Shown here in pieces: positions 3,001 through 14,716 of a DNA stretch of 64,000 nt. Within the stretch, counting starts at the first letter, position 1. Each line of letters opens with the position of its first letter. The stretch is taken from positions 310,001 through 374,000 of the forward strand of contig NZ_BANR01000005.1 of the NCBI RefSeq assembly GCF_000332975.1, in the 5' to 3' direction. A model generated the notes under the pieces. It was not told the origin of the DNA and did no database searches. It saw nothing but the letters and a program-made list of their open reading frames with translations. The position numbers and the translations under genes are program-made. The stretch comes from Gordonia aichiensis NBRC 108223. GTDB taxonomy: Bacteria > Actinomycetota > Actinomycetes > Mycobacteriales > Mycobacteriaceae.

Positions 3001-4802
3001 ACACGATTGGCGAGCGCGGCAGCGGTGCCGACGACGCCCTTGGGCGTGCCGGTCGATCCAGAGGTGTAGATCAGGTACGCGGCGGAAGCGGGATGCGGCG
3101 TGTACGGATCGGGTGCAACACCATCTGTCCCGGGCTCGTGGTCGCCGCCACGACAGATCTCGGTGAAGGTCTCGTCGTCGAGCACGAGGTCGGGAGCGGC
3201 GTCGTCGAGCATGAATCGGACTCGACGCTCCGGATAGGTCGGATCGATCGGCGCGATCACCGCGCCGAGTCGCGCGATCGCGAGGATGGCGACGACCATG
3301 TCGATTCCTCGTGGCAACGCCACCGCCACAATGGATTCGGCTCGGATGCCACGCGCGGCGAGCGCCCGCGCGGTCTGCCCGGCCAGAGCATCGAGTTCGC
3401 GGTATCCCACGCGACGATCCCCACACACCAGGGCCGTGCGCCGCGCGCGACGCTGCGCGGTGGCGCAGATCTGCTCGGCGACCGGTACATACGGAAGCGG
3501 GTGTTCCTCGTGAGAGTTCTTGACCGATCCGGTCGTCGCGACGGTGTTCAGCCGGCCGAGTGTGGTGTCACGTGACCGTGCCAGCACCGCCAGCCAGCGT
3601 ATGACCTCGTCGAGTAGACGCGCATCGGCACCACGGCGTTCGAGTACGAGTCCGATCCGCGGATCATCGTCGACGACAAGTGTTGCGGCGAAGTCGTTGT
3701 CGTCCTCGATGTGGGGGCGGACCTCTCCTCGCGGGAAGCTCTCGAACACGACGAGGGAGGTGATCGGACCGCCGAGGTCGACCGCCGACACGATGTCGGA
3801 CAGCGGTACATGGTGGCTGTCGAGCAGGGCAAGCTGTTCGCGCTGCAGGCGGGTGAGGGTATCTCCGACCGTCTCTGTCGGCTCCATTCGCACACGAACC
3901 GGAACCGTGTTGATGAGCATGCCGACCATCTCGTCGACACCCGGCACCGACGGATCACGCCCTGAAACGACTGTCGCGAAGACCACGTCGTCGCAGTCGT
4001 TGCGATCGGCGAGCACGAGCGCCCACGCCAACTGGATGACGGTGTTCAACGTCGCCGACGACTCTGTGGCCAGCGCGCGGAGCGCCGACGACAGTTCGAT
4101 GTCGAGCTCCGTACGCACGGGCGCACTCGGCGTGGTCGGCTCGACGACGTCGACGATCGTCGGTTCCTCGACACCGGCGAGTGCGTTCACCCACGGGCCG
4201 ACGTCACGGCCCCGCGACGAGAGCCAGCGCGCGTGGTCGCTGATCGGCCGTACCGCGGCGAGAGCGTCGCCCCGGTACGCGCGGACGATCTCTCCGAGCA
4301 TCAGGTGCAGCGACCATCCGTCGAGTGCGACATGATGAGCCACAACGAAGAGCCAACGGGGGCAATCGTTCTCGGTGAGGAGTGTGAACCGCAGTGGCGG
4401 TGGAGAGGTCAGCGGGATTCCGGCCGAGCGGGCCTCTGCACGCAGTGTGTCGAGCCCGCCGTCGAGCGTCGCGACGTCGATGACCGGCAACTCGACGTCG
4501 ACCCCGACGTGCACACGCGCCACCGGTTCGCCGGTCCGGCGGCGTGTGTACGACGTTCGCAGAGCGGCGTGCCGCGCGGCGACGGTGACGATCGCGGCTC
4601 GCAGGCGGTCAACGTCGACGTCGGCGCCGAGAACTGTGGTGAGGTCGAGGTCGGCGAGTATCAGGTACGGGTCCACATCGTCCGACGCACGGGGTGCGGT
4701 CGACCGGTAGATGATTGCTTCCTGGAGCCCGGTCAGGGGCAGGACGTCCTCCAGCGATTTCGCGTTGCCGCTCTGTGGTGTGTCGACGCGTGCCGCGGTC
4801 AC
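1..4802 (-). CDS. Siderophore NRPS, C-A-PCP-C-A (3' part outside the window)
   Basis: Non-ribosomal peptide synthetase read on the minus strand; about 1600 codons are visible and the frame is still open at base 1. Domains in order: condensation (HHVALDGW near residue 155), adenylation (YTSGSTGTPKG near 576), carrier protein (DNFFDLGGHSL near 965, Ser is the phosphopantetheine site), second condensation (HHIAADEW near 1155), then a second adenylation domain cut after its A2 region (GASYVPIDPAYP near 1555). The first A domain reads by eye as I-D-T-T-V-G-S-G-D at the specificity positions, so the usual Asp235 is not Asp and its substrate is unassigned. The GTG start overlaps the upstream NRPS stop by 4 nt (GTGA), so the two are translationally coupled. 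It probably elongates the chain started by the upstream module. No thioesterase or epimerase domain is visible in this part. Confidence 0.93.
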   Translation of the reverse strand, partial: MTAARVDTPQSGNAKSLEDVLPLTGLQEAIIYRSTAPRASDDVDPYLILADLDLTTVLGADVDVDRLRAAIVTVAARHAALRTSYTRRRTGEPVARVHVGVDVELPVIDVATLDGGLDTLRAEARSAGIPLTSPPPLRFTLLTENDCPRWLFVVAHHVALDGWSLHLMLGEIVRAYRGDALAAVRPISDHARWLSSRGRDVGPWVNALAGVEEPTIVDVVEPTTPSAPVRTELDIELSSALRALATESSATLNTVIQLAWALVLADRNDCDDVVFATVVSGRDPSVPGVDEMVGMLINTVPVRVRMEPTETVGDTLTRLQREQLALLDSHHVPLSDIVSAVDLGGPITSLVVFESFPRGEVRPHIEDDNDFAATLVVDDDPRIGLVLERRGADARLLDEVIRWLAVLARSRDTTLGRLNTVATTGSVKNSHEEHPLPYVPVAEQICATAQRRARRTALVCGDRRVGYRELDALAGQTARALAARGIRAESIVAVALPRGIDMVVAILAIARLGAVIAPIDPTYPERRVRFMLDDAAPDLVLDDETFTEICRGGDHEPGTDGVAPDPYTPHPASAAYLIYTSGSTGTPKGVVGTAAALANRVAWAAQCWDGSVVLAKSAIAFIDGLTEILGALAAGATVVVADDESARDAAALVDLADRHCVDQITAVPSLARTIVDVRTEEKAGEPGGSSIRRWIVSGEPLPTGTAALLARAADEVINSYGSSEVAGDVTTATIGAPTGDNSLEEVTVGTAVPGCGVVVLDRHLNPVPMGRPGEVYVTGVQLARGYHGHPDWTATRFVPSTTGSGERMYRTGDRGLVTADGQLRLLGRTDSQVKIRGARVELGEVEQAVLELAGVEDAVATAGRAADGSARLDVYVSGAHAPEAVPPALLDAVPPAMVPATWTRLDSLPRTPGGKTDRRALPTPSAPRTASLREPSTDLERLVVDTVTEVLGLDTADARQPGLDDNFFDLGGHSLSATRVLTRLRVATGRVVGVADVFAHPVLADLASLFADDAETVGAAPSGPAVRAPRPERIPLSPAQRRLAFQSGIGDAAYTIPFAVRLDGPLDRARLQRALDGVVGRHEALRTRIVDDAQVIDPAVDSRILIADHEVERSRLDETIDDLIGRPFELSTDLPMRADLLKTSEDSALLLLTVHHIAADEWSATTLFDELAAGYNGEPVAAPDIAYADHTLAEIDRLGNVAEPGSLVSRQLDYWRGQLADAPAELDLPYDRPRPSQPDPSGGQVEIVVDSEVLAGLRSAVRALDATLFMAAHAAVAVALNASGAGNDIVVGTPVAGRSSAAAESLIGMFVNTLTLRTDLSGDPTLAEVLQRIRTTDVDALAAQDVPFDEVVTALAPERALSRHPLFQTMVQYRDPIIAPGFDGLRAQPVFPRSRTAKFDLTFEFVELSDSAGIRLRVEYATALFDEATVTELAARVRTVLHALVDTPTARVARLRADRPAHLPAIPLPEYRSGEALQRRTLVDVFAGTADRFADRRAVSAGSQTLTYRELDTRSTSIAARLRRDGVRRGHSVALIIDRSTDLVAAIIGVLRCGASYVPIDPAYPHERITTTLAEARPTVVVDADYLWNIDDSGSYTPSF

Positions 4803-7800
4803 AGCAGGTCCCCCTCCATGAGTTCGGTCAGTTCGTCGTCATCGATGCCAGCGGTCGTCCCGGAGTCGGCGTCTGCCGCGGGCGCCGGGTCCGCAGGTCG
4901 TGCGGCGCCGCGGGGGCGCGCAACCGCCGCGAGAGCTTCGACAGTGGGGTGGTCGAAGATCTCCAGCGGCGTGAGGTCCCAGCCAACCGACGCCGCTGCG
5001 CTGACCGCACGAACTGCGACGATGCTGTCTCCGCCGAGCGTGAAGAAGTTGTCCTCCGCGCCGACGGCGGGCAGTCCGAGTACGGCTGCGAAGACATCCG
5101 CGAGTGCGGTTTCGCGCGGCCCTCTCGGGGAGCGGGACCGCGCGGCTCGGGCCGCGTAATCCGGTGCGGGCAACGCCCGCCGATCGACTTTGCCGTTGGG
5201 TGTCTGCGGGAACGCGTCGAGCACGACGAGCGCTGACGGCACCATGTAGTCGGGCAGGATGTCGGCGACCCTGCTCCGCCACGACTGTTCGAGTGCCTTC
5301 GAGTCCGTGTCGGGCCGGGCTGTCACGTAGCCGACGAGTCTCCCGCCCACCGAGGCCGCCACCGCGCCGGACACCTCGGGGAGCGAGGAGAGAGCCGTCT
5401 CGATGTCGCCGAGTTCGACCCGGAAGCCGCGGACCTTGACCTGGTGGTCGGTTCGGCCCAGGCAGTCCAGACGGCCATCGGGTCGGCGACGCGCCAGATC
5501 CCCGGTCCGATACATGGGGGCGCCGGCGGCGAAGGGGTCGGCCACGAATCTGGTCGCGGTGAGGCCTGGAAGGCCCCGGTATCCGCGAGCAAGTCCGGCA
5601 CCACCGATGTACAGCTCGCCCACGCGTCCCACTGGTACCGGATGCAGCGTCGAATCGAGCACGCGGACAACGGTATTCGAAATCGGACTGCCTATCGTGA
5701 TGTCGATGCCGCCCCGTCTGATCTCGGCCGACGTCGACCAGATCGTCGTCTCGGTCGGCCCGTACATATTGCGGACCGACCGCGCGGCGGCCGCCAGATC
5801 ATGTGCGAGGTCGACGGGCAGTTGCTCGCCCCCGACCAGCACATCGACCTCGGCGAGCGCGTCTGCGTGCCCGGCGCCGAGGAAGGCCGACCACAGCGAC
5901 GGGGTCGCCTGGACGAGGTCGGGACCGTGCTGGGAGATGAGTTCGGCCAGCCGCGCCGGATCGTGTACGTCGTCGTTGTCGGCGATGATCACGCACGCGC
6001 CGGCCGAGAGCGGCACCAGTGTCTCCAATAGTGCGATGTCGAAGGAGATCGTGGTGACCGAGAGGAGCGATCGGCCGGGACGTAGTCCGAGTTCGTCGAC
6101 CATGTGGTCGGCGAAGTTCCACAGGGCGCGGTGGGGAATGACCACGCCTTTCGGCGTTCCGGTCGAACCCGAGGTGTAGATCAGGTACGCGGCACTGTCA
6201 GCGCCCACAGGGGTCGGGCGGGCCGACGAGGTTCCTCGCCTGCCGTCGGACAGACGTCGCACGCGTATGCCGCCCGGTTCGGCGTCGGCGGGTTCGAGAA
6301 TGGCGACGGGTGCGGCGTCGGCGATGCTGGCGTCCAGGCGGTCGGCGGGAAACCCGGGATCCAGAGGGAGGAACGCTGCACCGGTGCGCATGACGGCGAT
6401 CAACGAGACGATGAGGTCGATGCCACGGGGGAGTGCCACGGCCACGACCGACTCGGCGTCAAGGGGGCCGAGATGCGCGACGAGGTCGTCGACCCGAGAC
6501 GTGAGTTCGCCGAAGTCGACCGCCTCGCCGCGGTGGCAGACGGCGACGGCATCGGGCGCAGCGGCGGCGATACGGACGTCGAGGGGTGTCGGATCTATCG
6601 ATGCTGTTCTGCCCGTGGGTTGCTCGCTGTCACCGGGCGAGTGGTGTCCCGTCGATTCGGATATCGCCGGCGCGGATTGCTCGACGTGCATGGCGCCGAC
6701 CCGACGGGTGGGCTCGCGGAGGAACTCATCGACGAACTCGGCGAGCGAGTGAGCAATTCGGGCCACGCGTGTCCGGCTGTAGATGGCTGCGTCGGCGTCG
6801 AGCGTGAGTTCGAGATCGGAACCGTCCGACGTCGGCGATCCGCGGTCGAGGGCCGTGATCGCCAGGTCGACGACCGGACCACGCCGCAGAGAGCGGATTC
6901 TGGCGATCAGCGAGTCGAACGCGACCGTGGAGCCGAAGGGTTTCACGTTCACCGTCGGCCCCACCACTCCGTCGACGCCTCGGCGTCGGGCATCCCGCAG
7001 GATGTGCTCGCCGCGGTACCGCGCGTGGGGCGCGATCCGACGAATTCTCGCCGCTGCATCAGCTGCGAGTTCCTCCGCTGTGGCTGCCGGGCCGACCGCG
7101 ACGCGTAACGGGACCACATTCACCGTTGTGCACGCGACATTGGCACTGGGAGAACCGAATCGGTTCATCATCGGAAATCCGATCACCACGTCGCCGGTGC
7201 CTGTGACGCGTGCGCAGTATGCCGCGACGGCAGCAACAAGACGATCGGGGGCCATCGCAGCATGGCCTGCGTCCGGCACCACGACACTCGTCGTGTGTGT
7301 GCTCGCCGCAATGCGGTGACCGCGGGGGGCGTCACCCAGTGTGAGAGGGCCTGCGACGCCGTCGAGTTCGCATTCCCAGAATCCTGCACTGGCATCGGCA
7401 TCGGACTCGGCGGGAAGCGTGACGATACTTCCGAGGCGGCGGGTATCTGCTGGATCGGCGTATAGGCGACCGATGCGTCGAATGAGTAGTCCGAGTCCGT
7501 ACGCGTCGAGCACGATGTGGTGTGCGACGACGAGTAGGGCCGTGCGGTCGCCGGAGGTGAGGATCTCGACGGCCGCGCACGGGTCGAGGGCGGGATCGAT
7601 TTCGCGTTCCACCGCCACACGGGCATACGCATCGATCGCATCGGCGGCGTCGCCGAGTTCTCGTTCGACGACACCGATCGGCTCGCCGAGAGTCACCTCG
7701 ACGTCGCCGTCGTGTTCGGTGAAGATCGACCGCAGGCCATCGGCCTCGTCGAGAGCGGCGCGAACCGCGCTGATCAGGCGGCGTCGATCCGGTGCACGGT

Positions 7801-7894
7801 CGAAGTCGACGAGCTGACCGATGGTGAACACATCCGGGTTGGGCGCGAGTTTGTGCGCGAACCACAATCCCAGTTGCGCCGACGTGGCGCGCAT
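4799..7894 (-). CDS. Siderophore NRPS module C-A(Gly)-PCP
   Basis: One complete NRPS module of 1031 residues. The N-terminal condensation domain (opening SAQLGLWFAHKL, active site HHIVLDA near residue 125) resembles those of EntF and DhbF, which accept an aryl acid from an aryl carrier protein. The adenylation domain (A3 motif near 570) gives by eye D-I-L-Q-V-G-M-I-W, close to the glycine code DILQLGLIWK. The carrier domain has LGGDS with Ser957. I chose ATG 7894 because GGAGGG lies 7 nt upstream and the protein then begins at the condensation domain; a TTG at 7951 is in frame but lacks support. It is transcribed from the divergent iron-box promoter and coupled to the following NRPS. The likely role is joining the aryl cap to glycine. 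Confidence 0.93.
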   Translation of the reverse strand: MRATSAQLGLWFAHKLAPNPDVFTIGQLVDFDRAPDRRRLISAVRAALDEADGLRSIFTEHDGDVEVTLGEPIGVVERELGDAADAIDAYARVAVEREIDPALDPCAAVEILTSGDRTALLVVAHHIVLDAYGLGLLIRRIGRLYADPADTRRLGSIVTLPAESDADASAGFWECELDGVAGPLTLGDAPRGHRIAASTHTTSVVVPDAGHAAMAPDRLVAAVAAYCARVTGTGDVVIGFPMMNRFGSPSANVACTTVNVVPLRVAVGPAATAEELAADAAARIRRIAPHARYRGEHILRDARRRGVDGVVGPTVNVKPFGSTVAFDSLIARIRSLRRGPVVDLAITALDRGSPTSDGSDLELTLDADAAIYSRTRVARIAHSLAEFVDEFLREPTRRVGAMHVEQSAPAISESTGHHSPGDSEQPTGRTASIDPTPLDVRIAAAAPDAVAVCHRGEAVDFGELTSRVDDLVAHLGPLDAESVVAVALPRGIDLIVSLIAVMRTGAAFLPLDPGFPADRLDASIADAAPVAILEPADAEPGGIRVRRLSDGRRGTSSARPTPVGADSAAYLIYTSGSTGTPKGVVIPHRALWNFADHMVDELGLRPGRSLLSVTTISFDIALLETLVPLSAGACVIIADNDDVHDPARLAELISQHGPDLVQATPSLWSAFLGAGHADALAEVDVLVGGEQLPVDLAHDLAAAARSVRNMYGPTETTIWSTSAEIRRGGIDITIGSPISNTVVRVLDSTLHPVPVGRVGELYIGGAGLARGYRGLPGLTATRFVADPFAAGAPMYRTGDLARRRPDGRLDCLGRTDHQVKVRGFRVELGDIETALSSLPEVSGAVAASVGGRLVGYVTARPDTDSKALEQSWRSRVADILPDYMVPSALVVLDAFPQTPNGKVDRRALPAPDYAARAARSRSPRGPRETALADVFAAVLGLPAVGAEDNFFTLGGDSIVAVRAVSAAASVGWDLTPLEIFDHPTVEALAAVARPRGAARPADPAPAADADSGTTAGIDDDELTELMEGDLL

Positions 7895-7965
7895 CAGCAA
7901 CCCTCCACGGGGGTCTGTGTTGCGGCGACTTCGACCAATCGACGACGGCAATCAACCATGGGTAT

Positions 7966-7984
7966 TTAGCTTACCCTAGCCTTA
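7966..7984 (-). promoter_or_regulatory. IdeR/DtxR-type iron box over the NRPS promoter
   Basis: TTAGCTTACCCTAGCCTTA matches 14 of 19 positions of the iron-box consensus TTAGGTTAGGCTAACCTAA. On the minus strand it contains TAGGGT (7973-7978), a good -10 hexamer for the NRPS operon, so iron-loaded IdeR would block RNA polymerase. The predicted leader to ATG 7894 is about 72 nt. Confidence 0.75.
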
Positions 7985-8015: not shown

Positions 8016-8034
8016 TTTGGTAAGCCTATGCTTA
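8016..8034 (+). promoter_or_regulatory. IdeR/DtxR-type iron box over the carrier-halogenase promoter
   Basis: TTTGGTAAGCCTATGCTTA matches 13 of 19 consensus positions and lies in a perfect inverted repeat TGGTAAGC-4-GCTTACCA (8018-8037). It covers TATGCT (8027-8032), a -10 hexamer for the aryl-carrier/halogenase genes. With the box at 7966 it gives each divergent operon its own iron-controlled promoter. Confidence 0.68.
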
Positions 8035-8089: not shown

Positions 8090-8365
8090 ATGGCCACAAC
8101 GAACACGGTACTCACCCGAGAACGGATCATCGCCGACATCGCGGGCATCCTCGGCGTGGCCGAGCACGAAATAACCGATGACACAAACGTTCTCGACGTC
8201 GGTCTCGACTCGGTGCGACTGATGTCACTGATCGAGCGCTGGCGTGCAGCAGGCGCACACCAGGCGGATCTGGTGAGCATGGCCGCTGACCCCGTCGTGG
8301 GTTCGTGGATTCGGGAACTCACTACTGAGAGCGCATCCGTCGAGCACGGGGGAGGACAGCGGTGA
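8090..8365 (+). CDS. Free-standing aryl carrier protein (ArCP)
   Basis: A 91-residue protein with the fold and motif of an aryl carrier protein. GLDSVRLMSLIERW places the phosphopantetheinylated serine at residue 41 and closely resembles the C-terminal ArCP of EntB (GLDSVRMMALAARW). It lacks the isochorismatase domain normally fused to it in EntB or DhbB. It should hold salicylate or 2,3-dihydroxybenzoate as a thioester, both for the first NRPS condensation domain and, by context, for the halogenase next to it. The GAGAGGA ribosome site is well spaced from ATG 8090, and the stop overlaps the halogenase start (GTGA), implying coupled production of the two proteins. The AMP ligase that would load it is not in the window. 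Confidence 0.88.
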   Translation: MATTNTVLTRERIIADIAGILGVAEHEITDDTNVLDVGLDSVRLMSLIERWRAAGAHQADLVSMAADPVVGSWIRELTTESASVEHGGGQR

Positions 8366-9882
8366 GCCGCACAGCGCAACCCGCCACAGAGACCGCCGAC
8401 GTCGTCGTTGTCGGAGGCGGGCCGGGAGGTTCGACGGTCGCCACACTGCTGGCCCGCAGCGGGCACCGCGTCGTGCAACTGGAGAAGGAGTCGTTCCCGA
8501 GGTATCAGATCGGCGAATCCCTGCTTCCGTCAACGATTCACGGCGTCTGTCGGTTGCTCGGCGTCGACGAGGAGATCAAGAACGCAGGCTTCATGCACAA
8601 ACGCGGCGGCAGCTTCCGCTGGGGGAAAAATCCCGTGCCGTGGAACTTCCTCTTCGCCATCTCACCGGAATTCGCAGGGGAGGGGTCCTACGCGTACCAG
8701 GTCGAGCGCATGAAGTTCGACCAGATCCTGCTCGAGAACGCTGCCGATCAGGGTGTCGATGTGCGCCAGCGCAGCCGGGTGACCACAACGGTTACCGACC
8801 ATTCCGGACGGGTCACCGGCATTCGGTACGTCGACTCCGACCGGGTCGAGCATCAGATCAACGCAAGATTCGTCGTCGACGCCTCGGGCAACACCACACG
8901 ATTGTCGAAGTACGCAGGCTCAGAACGGATCTACTCCGACTTCTTCCAGAATGTCGCGGTGTTCGGGTACTTCGAGAACGGGAAGCGATTCCCCGCGCCG
9001 GACAGCGGCAACATCCTGTGCGCGGCATTCGACGAGGGCTGGATGTGGTATATCCCGTTGTCGGACACCCTCACCAGTGTTGGTGCAGTCATCTCGCGCG
9101 AGAAGGCAGAGCATGCGCTCAACGCGCAAGAAGAGACCCTGCTGCACTATGTCGATCGATGCGAGATCGTGAAGGACATGCTCGCCGACGCCACACGGGT
9201 CACCGAGGGCACCTACGGCCAGATCCGTATTCGCAAGGACTACTCGTATGCCAACACACGCTTCTGGGGCAACGGCATGGTCCTCGTCGGTGATGCGGCA
9301 TGCTTCATCGATCCCGTGTTCTCCACCGGAGTTCATCTCGCGACGTATTCCGGTGTACTGGCTGCACGGTCGATCAACAGCGTCCTGGCAGGTGCGCTGA
9401 CCGAGGAACGTGCGTTCACAGAATTCGAAGGCCGCTACCGCCGCGAATACGCCGTGTTCTACGAATTCCTGTCGGCCTTCTACGACATGGAGCAGTCGGA
9501 GGACTCGTACTTCTGGAAGGCGCGCAAGGTGACGAACTTCGATCGCAACGACATGACCGCGTTCGTCTCACTCGTCGCGGGTGCCTACTCTGGTGAACAA
9601 GCCCTGACCGACCCGGATCAGATCGTCGAGCGGTTCTCTGCATCGACTGCTGCTCTCACCGCGGCAGCCGAGCGAACCGGTGGCATGGACACCGACTCGG
9701 GCCAGCGGATGGGCCACCTCTTCGGCACTCCCGTCGTACGTGAGGTCATGGAGGAGATGAACGCGCTACAGGCGCGCGCAGCGATCGGCACCGACGGGAG
9801 CGAGCCGCCGTTGCTCGACGGCGGTCTGGTCCCGTCGGCAGACGGCCTGAGCTGGGCCGAACCGGCTTCGGCTCCCGTCTGA
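8362..9882 (+). CDS. Flavin-dependent halogenase, carrier-tethered phenol type
   Basis: A 506-residue FADH2-dependent halogenase. The FAD dinucleotide motif GGGPGGS is at residues 18-24, followed by FPRYQIGESLLPST. The halogenase signature WxWxIP is present as WMWYIP at 227-232, and GDAACFIDPVFSTGVHLATYS follows near 310. Overall the protein resembles BhaA/VhaA of glycopeptide clusters and, less closely, PltA. Those enzymes chlorinate phenol or pyrrole rings while the substrate is bound to a carrier protein. Here the partner is almost certainly the aryl carrier protein immediately upstream, with a 4-nt overlap. Predicted reaction: chlorination of the salicyl or dihydroxybenzoyl ring on the carrier, using FADH2 from a separate reductase. 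A non-halogenating flavin monooxygenase is possible but disfavoured by the intact signature. Confidence 0.88.
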   Translation: MSRTAQPATETADVVVVGGGPGGSTVATLLARSGHRVVQLEKESFPRYQIGESLLPSTIHGVCRLLGVDEEIKNAGFMHKRGGSFRWGKNPVPWNFLFAISPEFAGEGSYAYQVERMKFDQILLENAADQGVDVRQRSRVTTTVTDHSGRVTGIRYVDSDRVEHQINARFVVDASGNTTRLSKYAGSERIYSDFFQNVAVFGYFENGKRFPAPDSGNILCAAFDEGWMWYIPLSDTLTSVGAVISREKAEHALNAQEETLLHYVDRCEIVKDMLADATRVTEGTYGQIRIRKDYSYANTRFWGNGMVLVGDAACFIDPVFSTGVHLATYSGVLAARSINSVLAGALTEERAFTEFEGRYRREYAVFYEFLSAFYDMEQSEDSYFWKARKVTNFDRNDMTAFVSLVAGAYSGEQALTDPDQIVERFSASTAALTAAAERTGGMDTDSGQRMGHLFGTPVVREVMEEMNALQARAAIGTDGSEPPLLDGGLVPSADGLSWAEPASAPV

Positions 9883-9898: not shown

Positions 9899-11149
9899 AT
9901 GCTGACGGCACTGGCAGTGGTCCTCGGCACGGCGGTCGTGTGCGGCGCGATCGCGCGTCGACTCGGATTCCCATCGATGGCAGGCGAATTGGTTGCGGGT
10001 GTCCTGCTCGGACCCTCGGTGCTCGGCCTGATCGCCCCACACGTGACCGGAATGGTCGTCGATGCCGAGGGCACGCCGAACGTGGCGATATCCGCGGTCG
10101 GTACCCTCGCCGTCGTCCTGCTCGTCGGCCTCGCCGCGACAGAACTCGACGCCCGGTTCCTGCGCACCTACGCAGGCACGATCGGCACGGTGGGCATCGT
10201 CGCGTTCGTGATCCCACTCGCGGTCGGCATCGGTATCGGATTCGTCCTGCCATCCCGGTTTCTTGGAGATGGCGCGCACACAGCACAATTCGCGGTCCTG
10301 CTCGGCCTCGCGATGTCGGTCAGCGCGATCCCTGTCATCGCGAGCATTCTCGGCGAGCTGAGTCTGCTTCGCACGACGCTCGGTCGGCTCGTCCTGTCGG
10401 TGGGGACCGTGACCGACCTCGCGGCCTGGGTGGCACTCGCGGCGGTGTCGGCACTGGCGACGGTCGGCCTTCGTGGCTGGCACCTGCCTCTGACGCTTGT
10501 CGCCGTGGCGGGGTCGGTGGGGGTGGCGTTGATCGCACGGCCGATCCTCGGACACCTGATGACCCGATTCGAGACCGCGGGCCACGACACGCAATCGGCA
10601 GCAGTGATGGTGATCGCGATGATCGCAGGTGCCGCAGCGACCGACGCCATGCACCTCGATGCCGTTCTCGGTGCCGTACTGGCAGGCATCGCGTGTGGTC
10701 GGCGCCCGGAGCGGGTCGTTGCGCCGCTCCGGATGGTCACCGCGACGGTTCTGGCGCCGGTCTTTCTCGCCTCGGCAGGGCTGCACGTCGATCTGCGTGC
10801 TCTCGCATCCCCCGCGGTGGCGGGAATCGCCATCGGCGTCATCACCGCGGCTGTCGTCGCGAAGCTGGTCGGCGGCTACCTCGGTGCACGGCTTGCCCGC
10901 AGGCCCCGATGGGAGTCGGTGGCCATCGCTAGTGGACTCAATGCACGCGGTGTGGTCGAGATCATCATCGCGACAACCGCATTGGGTCTCGGCATCTTCA
11001 GCGAGGAGACCTACATGATCGTCGTCGTCATGGCGGTACTCACGTCGGTGATGGCGGGACCGATGGTCGCGGCGGCCGCGCGCCGATGGCGTCCGGGTGC
11101 CGGTGGGTCAGTCCTCGTCGGCGCCGAGCGCCCGCAGCACGGTACGTAG
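9899..11149 (+). CDS. CPA2-family cation/proton antiporter
   Basis: A polytopic membrane protein of 416 residues with about 12 hydrophobic segments. It is related to Kef/NapA-type monovalent cation:proton antiporters; the first segments contain GFPSMAGELVAGVLLGPSVLG, typical of the family. It starts 16 nt after the halogenase and so lies in the iron-regulated operon. Antiporters of this kind also accompany halogenase genes in some glycopeptide clusters, from memory. Possible jobs are ion or pH balance during siderophore export, or transport of the product itself; neither is shown by the sequence. Its last 42 nt overlap the 3' end of the convergent isochorismate synthase gene. Confidence 0.88.
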   Translation: MLTALAVVLGTAVVCGAIARRLGFPSMAGELVAGVLLGPSVLGLIAPHVTGMVVDAEGTPNVAISAVGTLAVVLLVGLAATELDARFLRTYAGTIGTVGIVAFVIPLAVGIGIGFVLPSRFLGDGAHTAQFAVLLGLAMSVSAIPVIASILGELSLLRTTLGRLVLSVGTVTDLAAWVALAAVSALATVGLRGWHLPLTLVAVAGSVGVALIARPILGHLMTRFETAGHDTQSAAVMVIAMIAGAAATDAMHLDAVLGAVLAGIACGRRPERVVAPLRMVTATVLAPVFLASAGLHVDLRALASPAVAGIAIGVITAAVVAKLVGGYLGARLARRPRWESVAIASGLNARGVVEIIIATTALGLGIFSEETYMIVVVMAVLTSVMAGPMVAAAARRWRPGAGGSVLVGAERPQHGT

Positions 11150-12367
11150 CTTGGCCGTCGTCTCGGTGACCTCGGCGTCGGGATCCGACTCGGCGACGAT
11201 GCCGCCCCCGGCCCAGGTCGTCACGTCGCCGGTGCGCGAATCGATCTCGGCACAGCGGATGGCGACCAGCCACTCGCCGTCTCCTGAGCTCAGCGTCCCG
11301 GCCATGTCCCGCCGATCCGACACGGTCGCGCCGTCCGCTCCGCGGTACTCGCCGGGGCGGGTACCGGGCGCGAGCTCTCCGAGACACCACCCGACGGCTC
11401 CGCCGTAGAAGCCGCGGTCGCCCTCCGTCGCGCGGATGTATTCGCGTGCGGTGTCGGTGGGTGTTCCGCACACGGCAGGCGTGGGGTGGACGGCGATCGC
11501 GAGATCCAGGGCGGTGGTCGAGGCGTCGGCAAGTTCACCGACGATGGGGGTCCCGAGGTGCCACATCGTCGACGTACGCACGATCGATGGTGCCTCGGGA
11601 ACATCGAGGTGGCTGCACAATGGCGTAAGTGCACTCCGCAGGGCTTCGATGACGAAGCTGTGCTCGCCGAGATCTTTGGCGGAGGAACTCAATGTTCTCG
11701 CTCGCTCGGTGTCGACGGTCGGATCGCGATGGCGAGCCGCCGAACCGGCAAGGGGGTGCGCGCTGACCCGTGTGCCACGCCTGCGGACGAGAACCTCGGG
11801 GCTCGCACCTACGAGATACCGGCCGTGGTAGGCCGCGCCTGCGGGAGCGAGGCTCGTGCGAAAGATGCCGGATTCGGGGTTTTGCGTGGCGAGGGCTGCA
11901 CACAACAGCTCGGGAGATAGGTCTGCGCTGTGTAACAACAGTTTTCGCGCCAACACCACCTTGGCGAGTGGACTCGCCGGATCAGCGAGTACCGCCACCG
12001 CCGCGTCGACGCGCTCGCGGTGCTCGGTGGGCCGCGGTTCCGCTGCGACGATGTTCGCGCTCACGGCCCCCTGTGTGGCTGTCCAGGTGGTGGGCCGCGG
12101 CTCGAAGCACACGTGCGCGGGAGCGGTCAGTGCGCTCGGTGTGCGTGAGTCGAATGCAAGCGCTCCGACGATGGCCGCGTGGTCGCCGCGCGCGAGCGAC
12201 TCGGCGGCGAGACGAGGATCGTCGAAAGACGGCAACCCGCCGCGTGCAGAGCACAGGTGATCCGAGCCGGCGAACGCGAAATGCTCGGCAGGGCCGGAGA
12301 ATTGCTCAGCACGCACGGCATGACGGGCAGAATCGTCCGACTGTTCTGTCGAACTCGAAAGAGTCAT
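11108..12367 (-). CDS. Isochorismate synthase (EntC/DhbC/MenF family)
   Basis: A 419-residue chorismate-utilising enzyme that converts chorismate to isochorismate, the precursor of 2,3-dihydroxybenzoate or salicylate. Family marks in order: AKVVLARKLLL, VRTSTMWHLGTPIVGEL, VHPTPAVCGTP, GFYGGAVGWC and a C-terminal GGGIVAESDP. It is closer by eye to EntC/DhbC than to the salicylate synthase MbtI. About 25-30 extra residues sit between GGAVGWC and the EWLVAIRCAE strand compared with EntC. ATG 12367 is preceded by GGAGG at a 12-nt spacing. It is divergent from the ornithine monooxygenase, so both may answer to the iron box at 12448. Isochorismatase, DHB dehydrogenase or pyruvate lyase genes needed to finish the aryl acid are not in the window. 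Confidence 0.9.
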   Translation of the reverse strand: MTLSSSTEQSDDSARHAVRAEQFSGPAEHFAFAGSDHLCSARGGLPSFDDPRLAAESLARGDHAAIVGALAFDSRTPSALTAPAHVCFEPRPTTWTATQGAVSANIVAAEPRPTEHRERVDAAVAVLADPASPLAKVVLARKLLLHSADLSPELLCAALATQNPESGIFRTSLAPAGAAYHGRYLVGASPEVLVRRRGTRVSAHPLAGSAARHRDPTVDTERARTLSSSAKDLGEHSFVIEALRSALTPLCSHLDVPEAPSIVRTSTMWHLGTPIVGELADASTTALDLAIAVHPTPAVCGTPTDTAREYIRATEGDRGFYGGAVGWCLGELAPGTRPGEYRGADGATVSDRRDMAGTLSSGDGEWLVAIRCAEIDSRTGDVTTWAGGGIVAESDPDAEVTETTAKLRTVLRALGADED

Positions 12368-12447
12368 GATGTCGGTCGTCCTCCTCATTCGAAACGGATT
12401 CGACGTGCGATGTGCGCCGTAGGGGGCACGTGATGGCGAACTAATGA

Positions 12448-12466
12448 TTAGGTTAGACTTACCTAG
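12448..12466 (+). promoter_or_regulatory. IdeR/DtxR-type iron box
   Basis: TTAGGTTAGACTTACCTAG matches 16 of 19 consensus positions, the best of the three boxes. It covers TAGACT (12455-12460), a -10 hexamer for the ornithine monooxygenase gene. It lies between that gene and the divergent isochorismate synthase gene and could repress both. Confidence 0.88.
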
Positions 12467-12518
12467 CATTACGTGCGGCGGTGGCCCACGGACATCAGGA
12501 CGATCTAGGGAGTGGCGC

Positions 12519-13832
12519 GTGTGTAGTGAGCGGAACTCCGAACTCGATATCGCTGGCATCGGATTCGGACCCTCGAACCTGGCCCTGGCCATCGCGGTCG
12601 AGGAACACAACACCTCGAGCACGACCCGTGAGCGCGGCATCACCGCCCGGTTCTTCGAGAAGAAGCCCCGGTTCGGATGGCACCCCGGAATGCTGCTTCC
12701 CGGCGCGACCATGCAGGTGTCTTTTCTCAAAGACCTGGTGACGCAACGGAACACATCGAGTTCGTATTCGTTTCTGAATTACCTCGCCGAGCATGACCGA
12801 CTCGGTCACTTCATCAATCGGCAGGACTTCTTCCCGCTGCGCGTCGAATTCCACGACTACCTGCGCTGGGCGGCCGACCGTCTGTCGATCCCGGTCGACT
12901 ACGGCTGCGAGATCACCTCGGTGACGTTCATGGACGGCGCGTTCGACATCACCTCCGCATCGGGCGAGCGGGTCCGCGCACGCAACCTGGTGCTCGGCGG
13001 AGGGCTTCGGGCCAAACTGCCCGCGGGCGTCGTCGCCGGCCGACGCGTGTTCCACAACCATCACGTACTGCCGAACCTCGCGCAGTTGCCGCCGCTGACG
13101 CATCGCAGATTCGCGGTGATCGGCGCGGGCCAGAGCGCCGCGGAGGTCGCGGCCCACCTACACGAGACGACGGACGCCGAGGTGCATGCCGTGTTCTCCA
13201 AGTACGGCTACACCCCTGCCGACGACAGTCCCTATGCGAACCGCATCTTCGACTCCGACGCCGTCGACGAGTACTTCTCGGCCGAGCCCGCCTGGCGCGA
13301 CCGACTCCTGCAGTACCACCGCAGCACCAATTACTCGGCCGTGGATCCGGTCCTGATCACCGATCTCTACGGGCGCGAGTACAGCGAACGCGTATCGGGG
13401 CGCCGCCGCCTGTTCGTGCACGGCGCCACCGAGGTCACCGATCTCGACGAGACCGCCGACGGCGCACGGTTGCGGATCGCACATCGCACGACCGGCGAAG
13501 AACTCGACCTCGAGTGCGATGCCGTGGTGTTCGCAACGGGATTCGAGCCGACGCCGGTCTCGGACATGCTCGGTGATCTCGCCGCGTACTGCGCGGCCGA
13601 CCAGCACGGTCGACCCGTACTCGACCGCGCGTACCGTCTGCAGACGTCACCGGAGATCACCGGGCAGATCTTCGTACAAGGAAACTCCGAACACACACAC
13701 GGACTCACGTCGACGCTACTGTCGAACGTGGCCATCCGATCGGGGGAGATCCTCGACGCTATCACTGACCGGGGGCTGCCCGAACCGATAAAGACGGCCG
13801 TACCAGCTGGCCAGAGCGCTGCCGGCGCCTAA
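12519..13832 (+). CDS. L-ornithine N5-monooxygenase
   Basis: A class B flavin monooxygenase of 437 residues that hydroxylates the side-chain amine of ornithine, making the hydroxamate precursor of the siderophore. FAD site GIGFGPSNLALA is near residue 16 and NADPH site VIGAGQSAAEVA near 198. The stretch MQVSFLKDLVTQRN followed by YSFLNYL is typical of PvdA/SidA-type ornithine enzymes rather than MbtG-type lysine enzymes. I chose GTG 12519 (AGGGAG 6 nt upstream); an ATG at 12444 lies upstream of the iron box and cannot be the start. The siderophore-interacting protein follows after 20 nt, probably in one operon. Confidence 0.92.
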   Translation: MCSERNSELDIAGIGFGPSNLALAIAVEEHNTSSTTRERGITARFFEKKPRFGWHPGMLLPGATMQVSFLKDLVTQRNTSSSYSFLNYLAEHDRLGHFINRQDFFPLRVEFHDYLRWAADRLSIPVDYGCEITSVTFMDGAFDITSASGERVRARNLVLGGGLRAKLPAGVVAGRRVFHNHHVLPNLAQLPPLTHRRFAVIGAGQSAAEVAAHLHETTDAEVHAVFSKYGYTPADDSPYANRIFDSDAVDEYFSAEPAWRDRLLQYHRSTNYSAVDPVLITDLYGREYSERVSGRRRLFVHGATEVTDLDETADGARLRIAHRTTGEELDLECDAVVFATGFEPTPVSDMLGDLAAYCAADQHGRPVLDRAYRLQTSPEITGQIFVQGNSEHTHGLTSTLLSNVAIRSGEILDAITDRGLPEPIKTAVPAGQSAAGA

Positions 13833-13852
13833 GTTTTGGAGAGGTGAGAATT

Positions 13853-14716
13853 GTGACCGGGTCACAGACCGTCGGTGGGCAGGACACCACACCCCACCCG
13901 ACCGAGATCACGTTGACCATGTACGACCTGCTGCCCCGGACGGTCGAGGTGATCGAGACAATCGATCTGAGTCCGGACATGCGTCGGGTGCGCTTCGCGA
14001 TCAGTGCGCCGGAGAGCTTCATCGTCGTGCACATGGCACCCGACGACCACATCAAGCTGTTCTTTCCCGACCCGGAGACCGGCGAGATCGTCATGCCCGG
14101 TGTCGGCGCCGACGGCATGCGGTTGCCGACCGAGGGAAGATTCCCCATCTATCGCGACTACACGATCCGCGCCTTCGACCGCGATCGCGGCGTGCTCGAC
14201 ATCGACTTCGTCCTGCATGATCACGGCGTCGCGGGGAAGTGGGCCGGACAGGCGGTCGCGGGCGATCGGCTCGGCATGCTCGGCCCGCGCGGTTCGCACA
14301 TCTATCCGACAGGTTATGACTGGTACCTGCTCGGCGCCGACGACACCGCGCTACCGGCACTTGCGCGCTGGCTCGAGGAGCTGCCCGCCGACAAGCCGGT
14401 GATCGCATTCGCCGAAGTCACGGGACCGGACACCGAGATCGAGCTTCCCGAACGTCCGAATGCCCGCGTCCACTTCGTCCACCGTGGCGCCGACCAGTCC
14501 GGCCGGGGAACCAACCTCTTGCGTGCTCTGCAGCAGCTGGATCTCCCCGAGGGCGACTTCTACAGCTGGTTCGCCGGTGAGGCGTTGTCGCTCAAGCCGA
14601 TCCGCCGTCACCTACGACGCGAACTCGGTCGGTCCAAGGGCTCCGTCAAGGTGGACGGCTACTGGCGCACAGGAACGGTCAACCTCGACCATCACGTCGA
14701 GGACGACGACTCGTAG
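13853..14716 (+). CDS. Siderophore-interacting protein (FAD-dependent ferric-siderophore reductase)
   Basis: A 287-residue flavoprotein of the SIP/ViuB family. These cytoplasmic enzymes reduce ferric siderophore to release iron. The N-terminal FAD-binding barrel contains FPIYRDYTIRAFD (near residue 98), the usual isoalloxazine-contact motif. The C-terminal NAD(P)H-like domain has YLLGADDTALPAL and ends with WFAGEALSLKPIRRHLRRELG. GTG 13853 is chosen because GGAGAGG ends 8 nt upstream; a GTG at 13844 overlaps that site. It lies 20 nt after the ornithine monooxygenase and shares its iron-box promoter, so synthesis and use of the siderophore are co-regulated. Confidence 0.92.
   Translation: MTGSQTVGGQDTTPHPTEITLTMYDLLPRTVEVIETIDLSPDMRRVRFAISAPESFIVVHMAPDDHIKLFFPDPETGEIVMPGVGADGMRLPTEGRFPIYRDYTIRAFDRDRGVLDIDFVLHDHGVAGKWAGQAVAGDRLGMLGPRGSHIYPTGYDWYLLGADDTALPALARWLEELPADKPVIAFAEVTGPDTEIELPERPNARVHFVHRGADQSGRGTNLLRALQQLDLPEGDFYSWFAGEALSLKPIRRHLRRELGRSKGSVKVDGYWRTGTVNLDHHVEDDDS

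Follow-up and report, generated by a model that had tools for sequence, protein, structure and literature searches.

The window, a 64,000-nt stretch of a 5.09-Mb Gordonia genome (C74:310001-374000), contains part of a siderophore gene cluster of about 36 kb, which runs from a gene for a FepB-like binding protein (C74:288297) to one for a siderophore-interacting protein (SIP; window position 14716), with its left edge about 22 kb outside the window. In order, the genes encode the FepB-like protein (-), EntA (-), an isochorismatase (-), EntE (+), an EntS-like exporter (-), the nonribosomal peptide synthetases NRPS3 (-), NRPS2 (-) and NRPS1 (-), a free-standing aryl carrier protein (ArCP, +), a halogenase (+), an antiporter (+), EntC (-), an ornithine N-hydroxylase (+) and SIP (+). 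The genes, their order, the motifs, the boxes and their conservation are read directly from the sequence; the main features are as follows (window coordinates unless marked C74).

C74:293630-307249, minus strand: NRPS3, 4539 aa
1..4802 in the window, whole gene C74:307195-314802, minus strand: NRPS2, 2535 aa, C-A-T-C-A(Thr code)-T plus a C-terminal domain read as epimerisation (open frame; Pfam: 3 Condensation, 2 AMP-binding, 2 PP-binding)
4799..7951, minus strand: NRPS1, 1050 aa, C-A(Gly code)-T, EntF-like starter module (Pfam; alignment with EntF 5ja1, residues 23-1010; code DILQLGMIW)
7966..7984, no strand assigned: IdeR/DmdR-like iron box in the NRPS1/ArCP divergent promoter, 4 mismatches
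8016..8034, no strand assigned: weaker second iron-box-like site, 5 mismatches
8090..8365, plus strand: ArCP, 91 aa, Ser41 in GLDSVR (Pfam PP-binding, E 3.6e-8)
8362..9882, plus strand: flavin-dependent halogenase, 506 aa, GTG start, Lys80, WMWYIP at 227-232 (Pfam Trp_halogenase, E 2.7e-70)
9899..11149, plus strand: Na_H_Exchanger antiporter (Pfam, E 2.2e-45; neighbour counts)
11108..12415, minus strand: isochorismate synthase of the EntC/DhbC type (Chorismate_bind, E 2.4e-60; start chosen by us)
12444..13832, plus strand: ornithine/lysine N-monooxygenase (Pfam PF13434, E 1.9e-97)
12448..12466, no strand assigned: IdeR/DmdR-like iron box, EntC/N-hydroxylase, 3 mismatches
13844..14716, plus strand: SIP, ferric-siderophore reductase type (Pfam SIP, E 5.4e-34)

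A split EntB and a complete route to dihydroxybenzoate

The initial annotation had described an aryl carrier with Ser41 in GLDSVR whose gene overlaps that of the halogenase by 4 nt, and the two frames (8090-8365 and 8362-9882) bear this out. All five PDB matches of ArCP at E <= 0.001 (EntB, two EntE-EntB fusions, dihydroaeruginoic acid synthetase and HMWP2) are siderophore enzymes, and the top one covers residues 232-285 of the 287-aa EntB chain 2fq1, so that ArCP combines the phosphopantetheine serine with an EntB-like carrier match, as expected of an EntB-type aryl carrier. A carrier HMM, made with the best 80 of 539 halogenase loci described below, was run over C74:270001-330000; ArCP scored 113 bits and the only other matches were the T domains of NRPS3, at 23 bits. 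The isochorismatase is a single-domain protein of 226 aa that lacks a carrier and aligns with EntB residues 3-211 (2fq1); since it and ArCP match these two different parts of the protein, EntB is split here into two genes about 27 kb apart.

The cluster has the complete 2,3-dihydroxybenzoate (DHB) set of isochorismate synthase, isochorismatase, DHB dehydrogenase and DHB ligase, and the ligase has the pocket motif SSPG, as do three aligned DHB ligases, whereas two aligned salicylate ligases have ACPG/CCPG. Because of the gene set and the pocket motif we take the aryl unit to be 2,3-DHB, which settles an earlier choice between a salicyl and a dihydroxybenzoyl cap in favour of the latter and rules out salicylate as the substrate. 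We count against our main reading that EntA, EntC and EntE all fall below the NCBIfam equivalog cut-offs, even though no other models fit them better (for EntC, DhbC with 300 bits against a cut-off of 486); the EntS-like exporter scores above its cut-off.

The synthetases and the iron boxes

Using what we take to be the A-domain specificity codes, NRPS1 would activate Gly, NRPS2 a residue without assignment and then Thr, and NRPS3 hydroxy-Orn followed by two residues without assignment; in two of the NRPS3 A domains position 239 is Glu and Gln when read by eye but Trp in the alignment. Aligned with one another, the leading C domains of NRPS1 and NRPS3 score 85-86 bits, whereas against the other C or E domains of the cluster they reach 45 or less, and because both synthetases open with the same kind of C domain, EntF-like in NRPS1, the product could carry two aryl caps. 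No thioesterase was matched across NRPS1, NRPS2 and NRPS3. The start of NRPS3 is unusual for an NRPS: its EntF-like C domain is followed, at residues ~490-900, by a stretch with weak likeness to the epimerisation domain of NRPS2 and without the HH motif.

A scan over 104 kb with what we take to be the IdeR/DmdR box consensus gave three sites with at most 4 mismatches and eight, some of them overlapping, with at most 6, compared with means of 0.0 and 0.45 in 20 Markov-1 simulations. The three best predicted boxes lie in the NRPS1/ArCP, EntB/EntE and EntC/N-hydroxylase gaps, in agreement with the iron-boxed siderophore setting first proposed for the pair. Taken at its longest, the N-hydroxylase frame has the last of these boxes in its opening codons, and the true start of that gene is therefore probably downstream of 12444.

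The halogenase and its relatives

The halogenase has the FAD-binding fold family, catalytic Lys and WxWxIP motif of flavin-dependent halogenases and matches CndH (3e1t) with 583 bits over residues 10-500. In its own genome it is the sole gene above the Pfam family cut-off, with one further place just short of it (20.4 against 21 bits). Relatives were collected in one scan of a genome collection, with a 26-sequence alignment as query, and the best 80 of 539 confirmed loci were taken, a choice that biases the sample towards close relatives. Lys80, Trp227, Trp229, Ile231 and Pro232 are identical in 81/81 sequences (the window and the best 80 of 539 loci); both the WxWxIP signature given in the initial annotation and the conserved lysine whose loss it had named as a refutation are therefore present.

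In a quick maximum-likelihood tree (96 rows, LG+G4, SH-aLRT support alone), a branch with support 100 sets 46 loci, CndH and one Amycolatopsis protein apart from the window and the other 34 of the best 80 of 539 loci. Among these loci, those on the window side have halogenases 61-93% identical to that of the window and those on the opposite side 54-61%; the avoparcin producer A. coloradensis, on the opposite side, has one of 58%. The loci of A. coloradensis and A. bartoniae are labelled as glycopeptide type following excerpts of a published paper (PMC11727664). The proposed resemblance to BhaA/VhaA thus holds loosely, as likeness to the A. coloradensis enzyme, but the phylogeny that had been suggested as a check places the halogenase apart from the glycopeptide-type enzymes, and a grouping with them is ruled out. 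Rooting on CmlS does not leave the carrier-paired side as one clade; its end branch of 4.7 makes the position of the root unsure.

Two alignment columns also follow the tree: residue 322 is Thr in 35/35 own-side and Ser in 46/46 opposite-side halogenases, and residue 95 is Asn in 35/35 and Thr in 41/46, respectively (best 80 of 539 plus the window). A halogenase in a record titled Rhodococcus rhodnii NRRL B-16535 (L070) groups with the A. coloradensis type, and that record may be misnamed. For one locus considered as the C-1027 halogenase SgcC3 (L099), a scan of six neighbours gave one sugar-nucleotide enzyme and no diagnostic family.

Pairing with a carrier across genomes

A carrier lies directly upstream of the halogenase in 28 of the best 80 of 539 loci, and these pairs come, going by record titles, from at least 12 genera: Gordonia, Nocardia, Actinoplanes, Paractinoplanes, Dactylosporangium, Streptomonospora, Actinomadura, Streptosporangium, Amycolatopsis, Saccharothrix, Pseudonocardia and the myxobacterium Hyalangium. 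All of them fall on the window side of the tree (28/34, against 0/46 opposite; best 80 of 539), and in at least 11 of the 28 the last 4 nt of the carrier frame are shared with the halogenase frame when starts are set by script. Within 10 kb, DHB genes were found at 13/28 carrier-positive and 0/52 carrier-negative loci of the same best 80 of 539. The pair of Hyalangium versicolor (L048; 64% identity) suggests, from sequence, a transfer between phyla.

A ligase match at E <= 1e-130 was present in 27/27 non-Gordonia window-side genomes and in 13/23 on the opposite side, where the search covered 23 of the 46 loci (best 80 of 539). The ligase lies on the halogenase contig and within 40 kb in 15 of those 27 window-side genomes. 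Three observations from the best 80 of 539 loci count against our reading: the remaining 12 of the 27 have the ligase more than 100 kb away or on a different contig; 13/23 antibiotic-side genomes also have a ligase somewhere; and six of the 34 window-side loci (R. rhodnii, R. triatomae and four Nocardiopsis) have no adjacent carrier. The R. rhodnii and R. triatomae loci (L026, L028) have a halogenase-antiporter pair, with the DHB ligase on another contig.

Gordonia genomes with and without the halogenase

The halogenase occurs in 12/59 Gordonia genomes and, among the best 80 of 539 loci, also in Rhodococcus and Nocardia; the initial annotation knew of no chlorinated catechol siderophore assigned to this order, in which the halogenase itself is therefore not unique. 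A ligase of at least 73% identity is present in 12/12 halogenase-bearing Gordonia, against 12/47 of the others at 70% or more (hypergeometric 2.4e-6, uncorrected for kinship). In 10/12 the ligase is on the same contig as the halogenase, no more than 28 kb away; in the other two, both draft genomes, the two genes lie on different contigs.

We took 40 kb around the ligase from eight of the 12 halogenase-free, ligase-bearing Gordonia, and found neither halogenase nor antiporter homologues in these stretches. ArCP is present in six of the eight, after the ligase in four, which rules out ArCP as a partner that exists with the halogenase alone. Two of these genomes (G018 and G048) have ArCP next to EntC and the N-hydroxylase, the arrangement of the window minus halogenase and antiporter, and they are, as far as gene content can tell, a natural before/after comparison, in clusters whose NRPSs differ too. 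Only the halogenase separates ArCP from EntC in G. polyisoprenivorans (L024, L123) and G031 (L124).

The antiporter

The antiporter is the least explained part of the cluster. A homologue lies less than 250 bp from the halogenase, in several relative orientations, in 27 of the best 80 of 539 loci, and 17 of these 27 are on the antibiotic side of the tree; since many halogenase loci have no antiporter, it is not essential. In Gordonia it adjoins the halogenase in 10/12 genomes, with a 48% homologue elsewhere in the remaining two, and 1/47 halogenase-free genomes has one at 45% identity or more. Co-occurrence even when unlinked is a weakened proposition: the neighbours of the G030 antiporter are Rv2466c-like and DUF1801 genes and the arrangement in G031 is like-sized, and these unlinked copies may be paralogues. 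At L125 (~6109, G053) the homologue is broken across two frames, by gene damage or assembly error. Excerpts of the literature describe antiporter genes in the clusters for chloramphenicol (cmlN, whose deletion leaves ~40% of the yield), cladoniamide (ClaT) and glycopeptides (PMC11727664).

Proposed role of the pair

Because halogenase and ArCP are paired inside a siderophore cluster, this Gordonia most likely makes a chlorinated siderophore, of a type described to date in few other actinomycetes. We propose, with a probability of roughly 0.7, that the pair is the chlorination step in the synthesis of a catecholate-hydroxamate siderophore. EntC, the single-domain EntB and EntA would make 2,3-DHB, which EntE would activate and the free ArCP, as EntB's missing carrier half, would take up. 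The halogenase would then chlorinate DHB-S-ArCP, with a reductase from elsewhere providing the FADH2; the ring carbon concerned is most likely C4, by analogy with chlorodactyloferrin. The EntF-like C domain of NRPS1 would couple the chloro-DHB to glycine; the initial C domain of NRPS3, being of the same kind, may attach a second cap. The chlorination of a carrier-bound cap proposed at the outset remains the best reading of the DHB genes, the carrier pairing and the intact motifs, while chlorination itself, its timing on the carrier, the ring position and the peptide are predictions from the gene content.

The same chlorinated cap would also arise if the halogenase acted on free DHB or DHB-AMP and EntE then loaded chloro-DHB onto ArCP, an order that we consider unlikely but worth taking seriously. 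It is what was proposed for the halogenase DafH of the chlorodactyloferrin pathway, and a non-chlorinated dactyloferrin by-product indicates that the later enzymes tolerate both acids, according to excerpts of that work (PMC10683483); the 6/34 window-side loci without an adjoining carrier (best 80 of 539) would fit it as well. DHB-S-ArCP is nevertheless favoured, since a carrier adjoins in 28/34 of these loci and at least 11 of those 28 show the 4-nt overlap (script-chosen starts; best 80 of 539), and since the pocket segments of EntE are unchanged. Moreover, glycopeptide halogenases accept aminoacyl-carrier substrates in the parts of the literature consulted (PMC5620994), and SgcC3, judging from paper titles, uses a beta-tyrosyl carrier. 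The pocket segments show no consistent difference between 10 halogenase-positive and eight halogenase-negative loci, which as a sign of chloro-DHB loading is not decisive and is neutral on chlorination before loading.

It is improbable that the halogenase targets another carrier-bound peptide residue or a phenol of some other pathway, its location reflecting synteny. Such a role would suit R. rhodnii and R. triatomae, which keep halogenase and antiporter without an adjoining carrier, all the more as in R. rhodnii the ligase maps to a different contig and the scanned neighbours included no recognised DHB gene; residues could be assigned to three of the six A-domain codes and no more, which leaves room for it. 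Against this, none of those three codes, as we take them to be, is of the tyrosine type, and the halogenase is linked to the carrier and, in 10/12 Gordonia halogenase genomes, to the ligase within 28 kb. A flavin monooxygenase that does not halogenate, or an inactive enzyme, is a very improbable reading: its Pfam/NCBIfam neighbours do include monooxygenases (e.g. QhpG, 170 bits, below cut-off), and StaK, a halogenase of a glycopeptide cluster, is called inactive in excerpts of one paper (PMC11727664), but Lys80 and WxWxIP are intact in 81/81 sequences (best 80 of 539 plus the window) and the match to CndH is full-length.

The reading that we prefer, chlorination of DHB on ArCP, might apply to the whole siderophore-halogenase group of at least 12 genera, one of them myxobacterial. 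The halogenase, often with the antiporter, could then be a plug-in cassette between EntC and an ArCP that is the split-off half of EntB, producing chlorocatechol siderophores; we offer this tentatively, at somewhat less than even odds. Few chlorinated catechol siderophores have been reported, whereas the carrier-halogenase pair is present in those 12 genera or more, and a search of titles and abstract openings, with most subscription journals outside its scope, found no report of one from Gordonia. As some related Gordonia clusters have the halogenase and others do not, what chlorination of an iron chelator costs and what it gains could be tested in similar backgrounds, and the recurrent halogenase-antiporter pairing is a separate testable question. 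Finally, the chlorocatechol of chlorodactyloferrin couples to pyridine-bearing drugs, according to excerpts of its description (PMC10683483), and a new natural source would therefore be of practical interest.

Comparison with known systems

In common with enterobactin synthesis (EntB/EntE/EntF), the Gordonia cluster has DHB activation, an aryl carrier and an EntF-like C domain; it differs in having EntB split over ~27 kb, a halogenase inserted and three NRPSs in which no thioesterase was matched. The glycopeptide halogenases (A. coloradensis) and CndH share its halogenase's fold family, catalytic Lys and WxWxIP, and the glycopeptide types take carrier-bound amino acids as far as the excerpted literature goes, but these enzymes are set apart by identities of at most 58% and by the support-100 branch, and the loci on their side of the tree by the absence of an upstream free carrier (46/46) and Ser at 322 (46/46), among the best 80 of 539 loci.

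Chlorinated DHB siderophores are already known, so the chlorocatechelin precedent cited initially stands as to kind, and chlorodactyloferrin adds a second one with a named halogenase, DafH. Chlorocatechelins A and B from Streptomyces are described in excerpts as chlorinated catecholate siderophores with a mirubactin-like skeleton (PMC9609785); at the level of the product, they share chlorinated catecholate groups with the siderophore proposed here. Chlorodactyloferrin, from Dactylosporangium fulvum, is in the excerpts available a linear octamer with one catechol and two hydroxamates, its 4-chloro-DHB shown by NMR (PMC10683483). The same source describes the expression of its cluster as not iron-regulated, which, given the boxes here, we count against our main reading.

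Our halogenase may be akin to DafH, which we liken to it by description rather than by its sequence. Among the seven Dactylosporangium genomes searched, two have a halogenase of 72% identity. A D. sucinum locus among the best 80 of 539 has a halogenase 71% identical, a carrier upstream and, by the codes as we take them to be, a Gly code followed by one fitting Arg, an order that is also that of chlorodactyloferrin in its excerpted description. On the same partial basis, the chlorodactyloferrin cluster resembles that of Gordonia in its enterobactin-type DHB genes, Gly next to the cap, hydroxy-Orn, large NRPSs and lack of a last-module thioesterase, whereas the Gordonia cluster is distinguished by its predicted residues (Gly, one unassigned, Thr, hydroxy-Orn and two unassigned), two EntF-like C domains, iron boxes and an antiporter.
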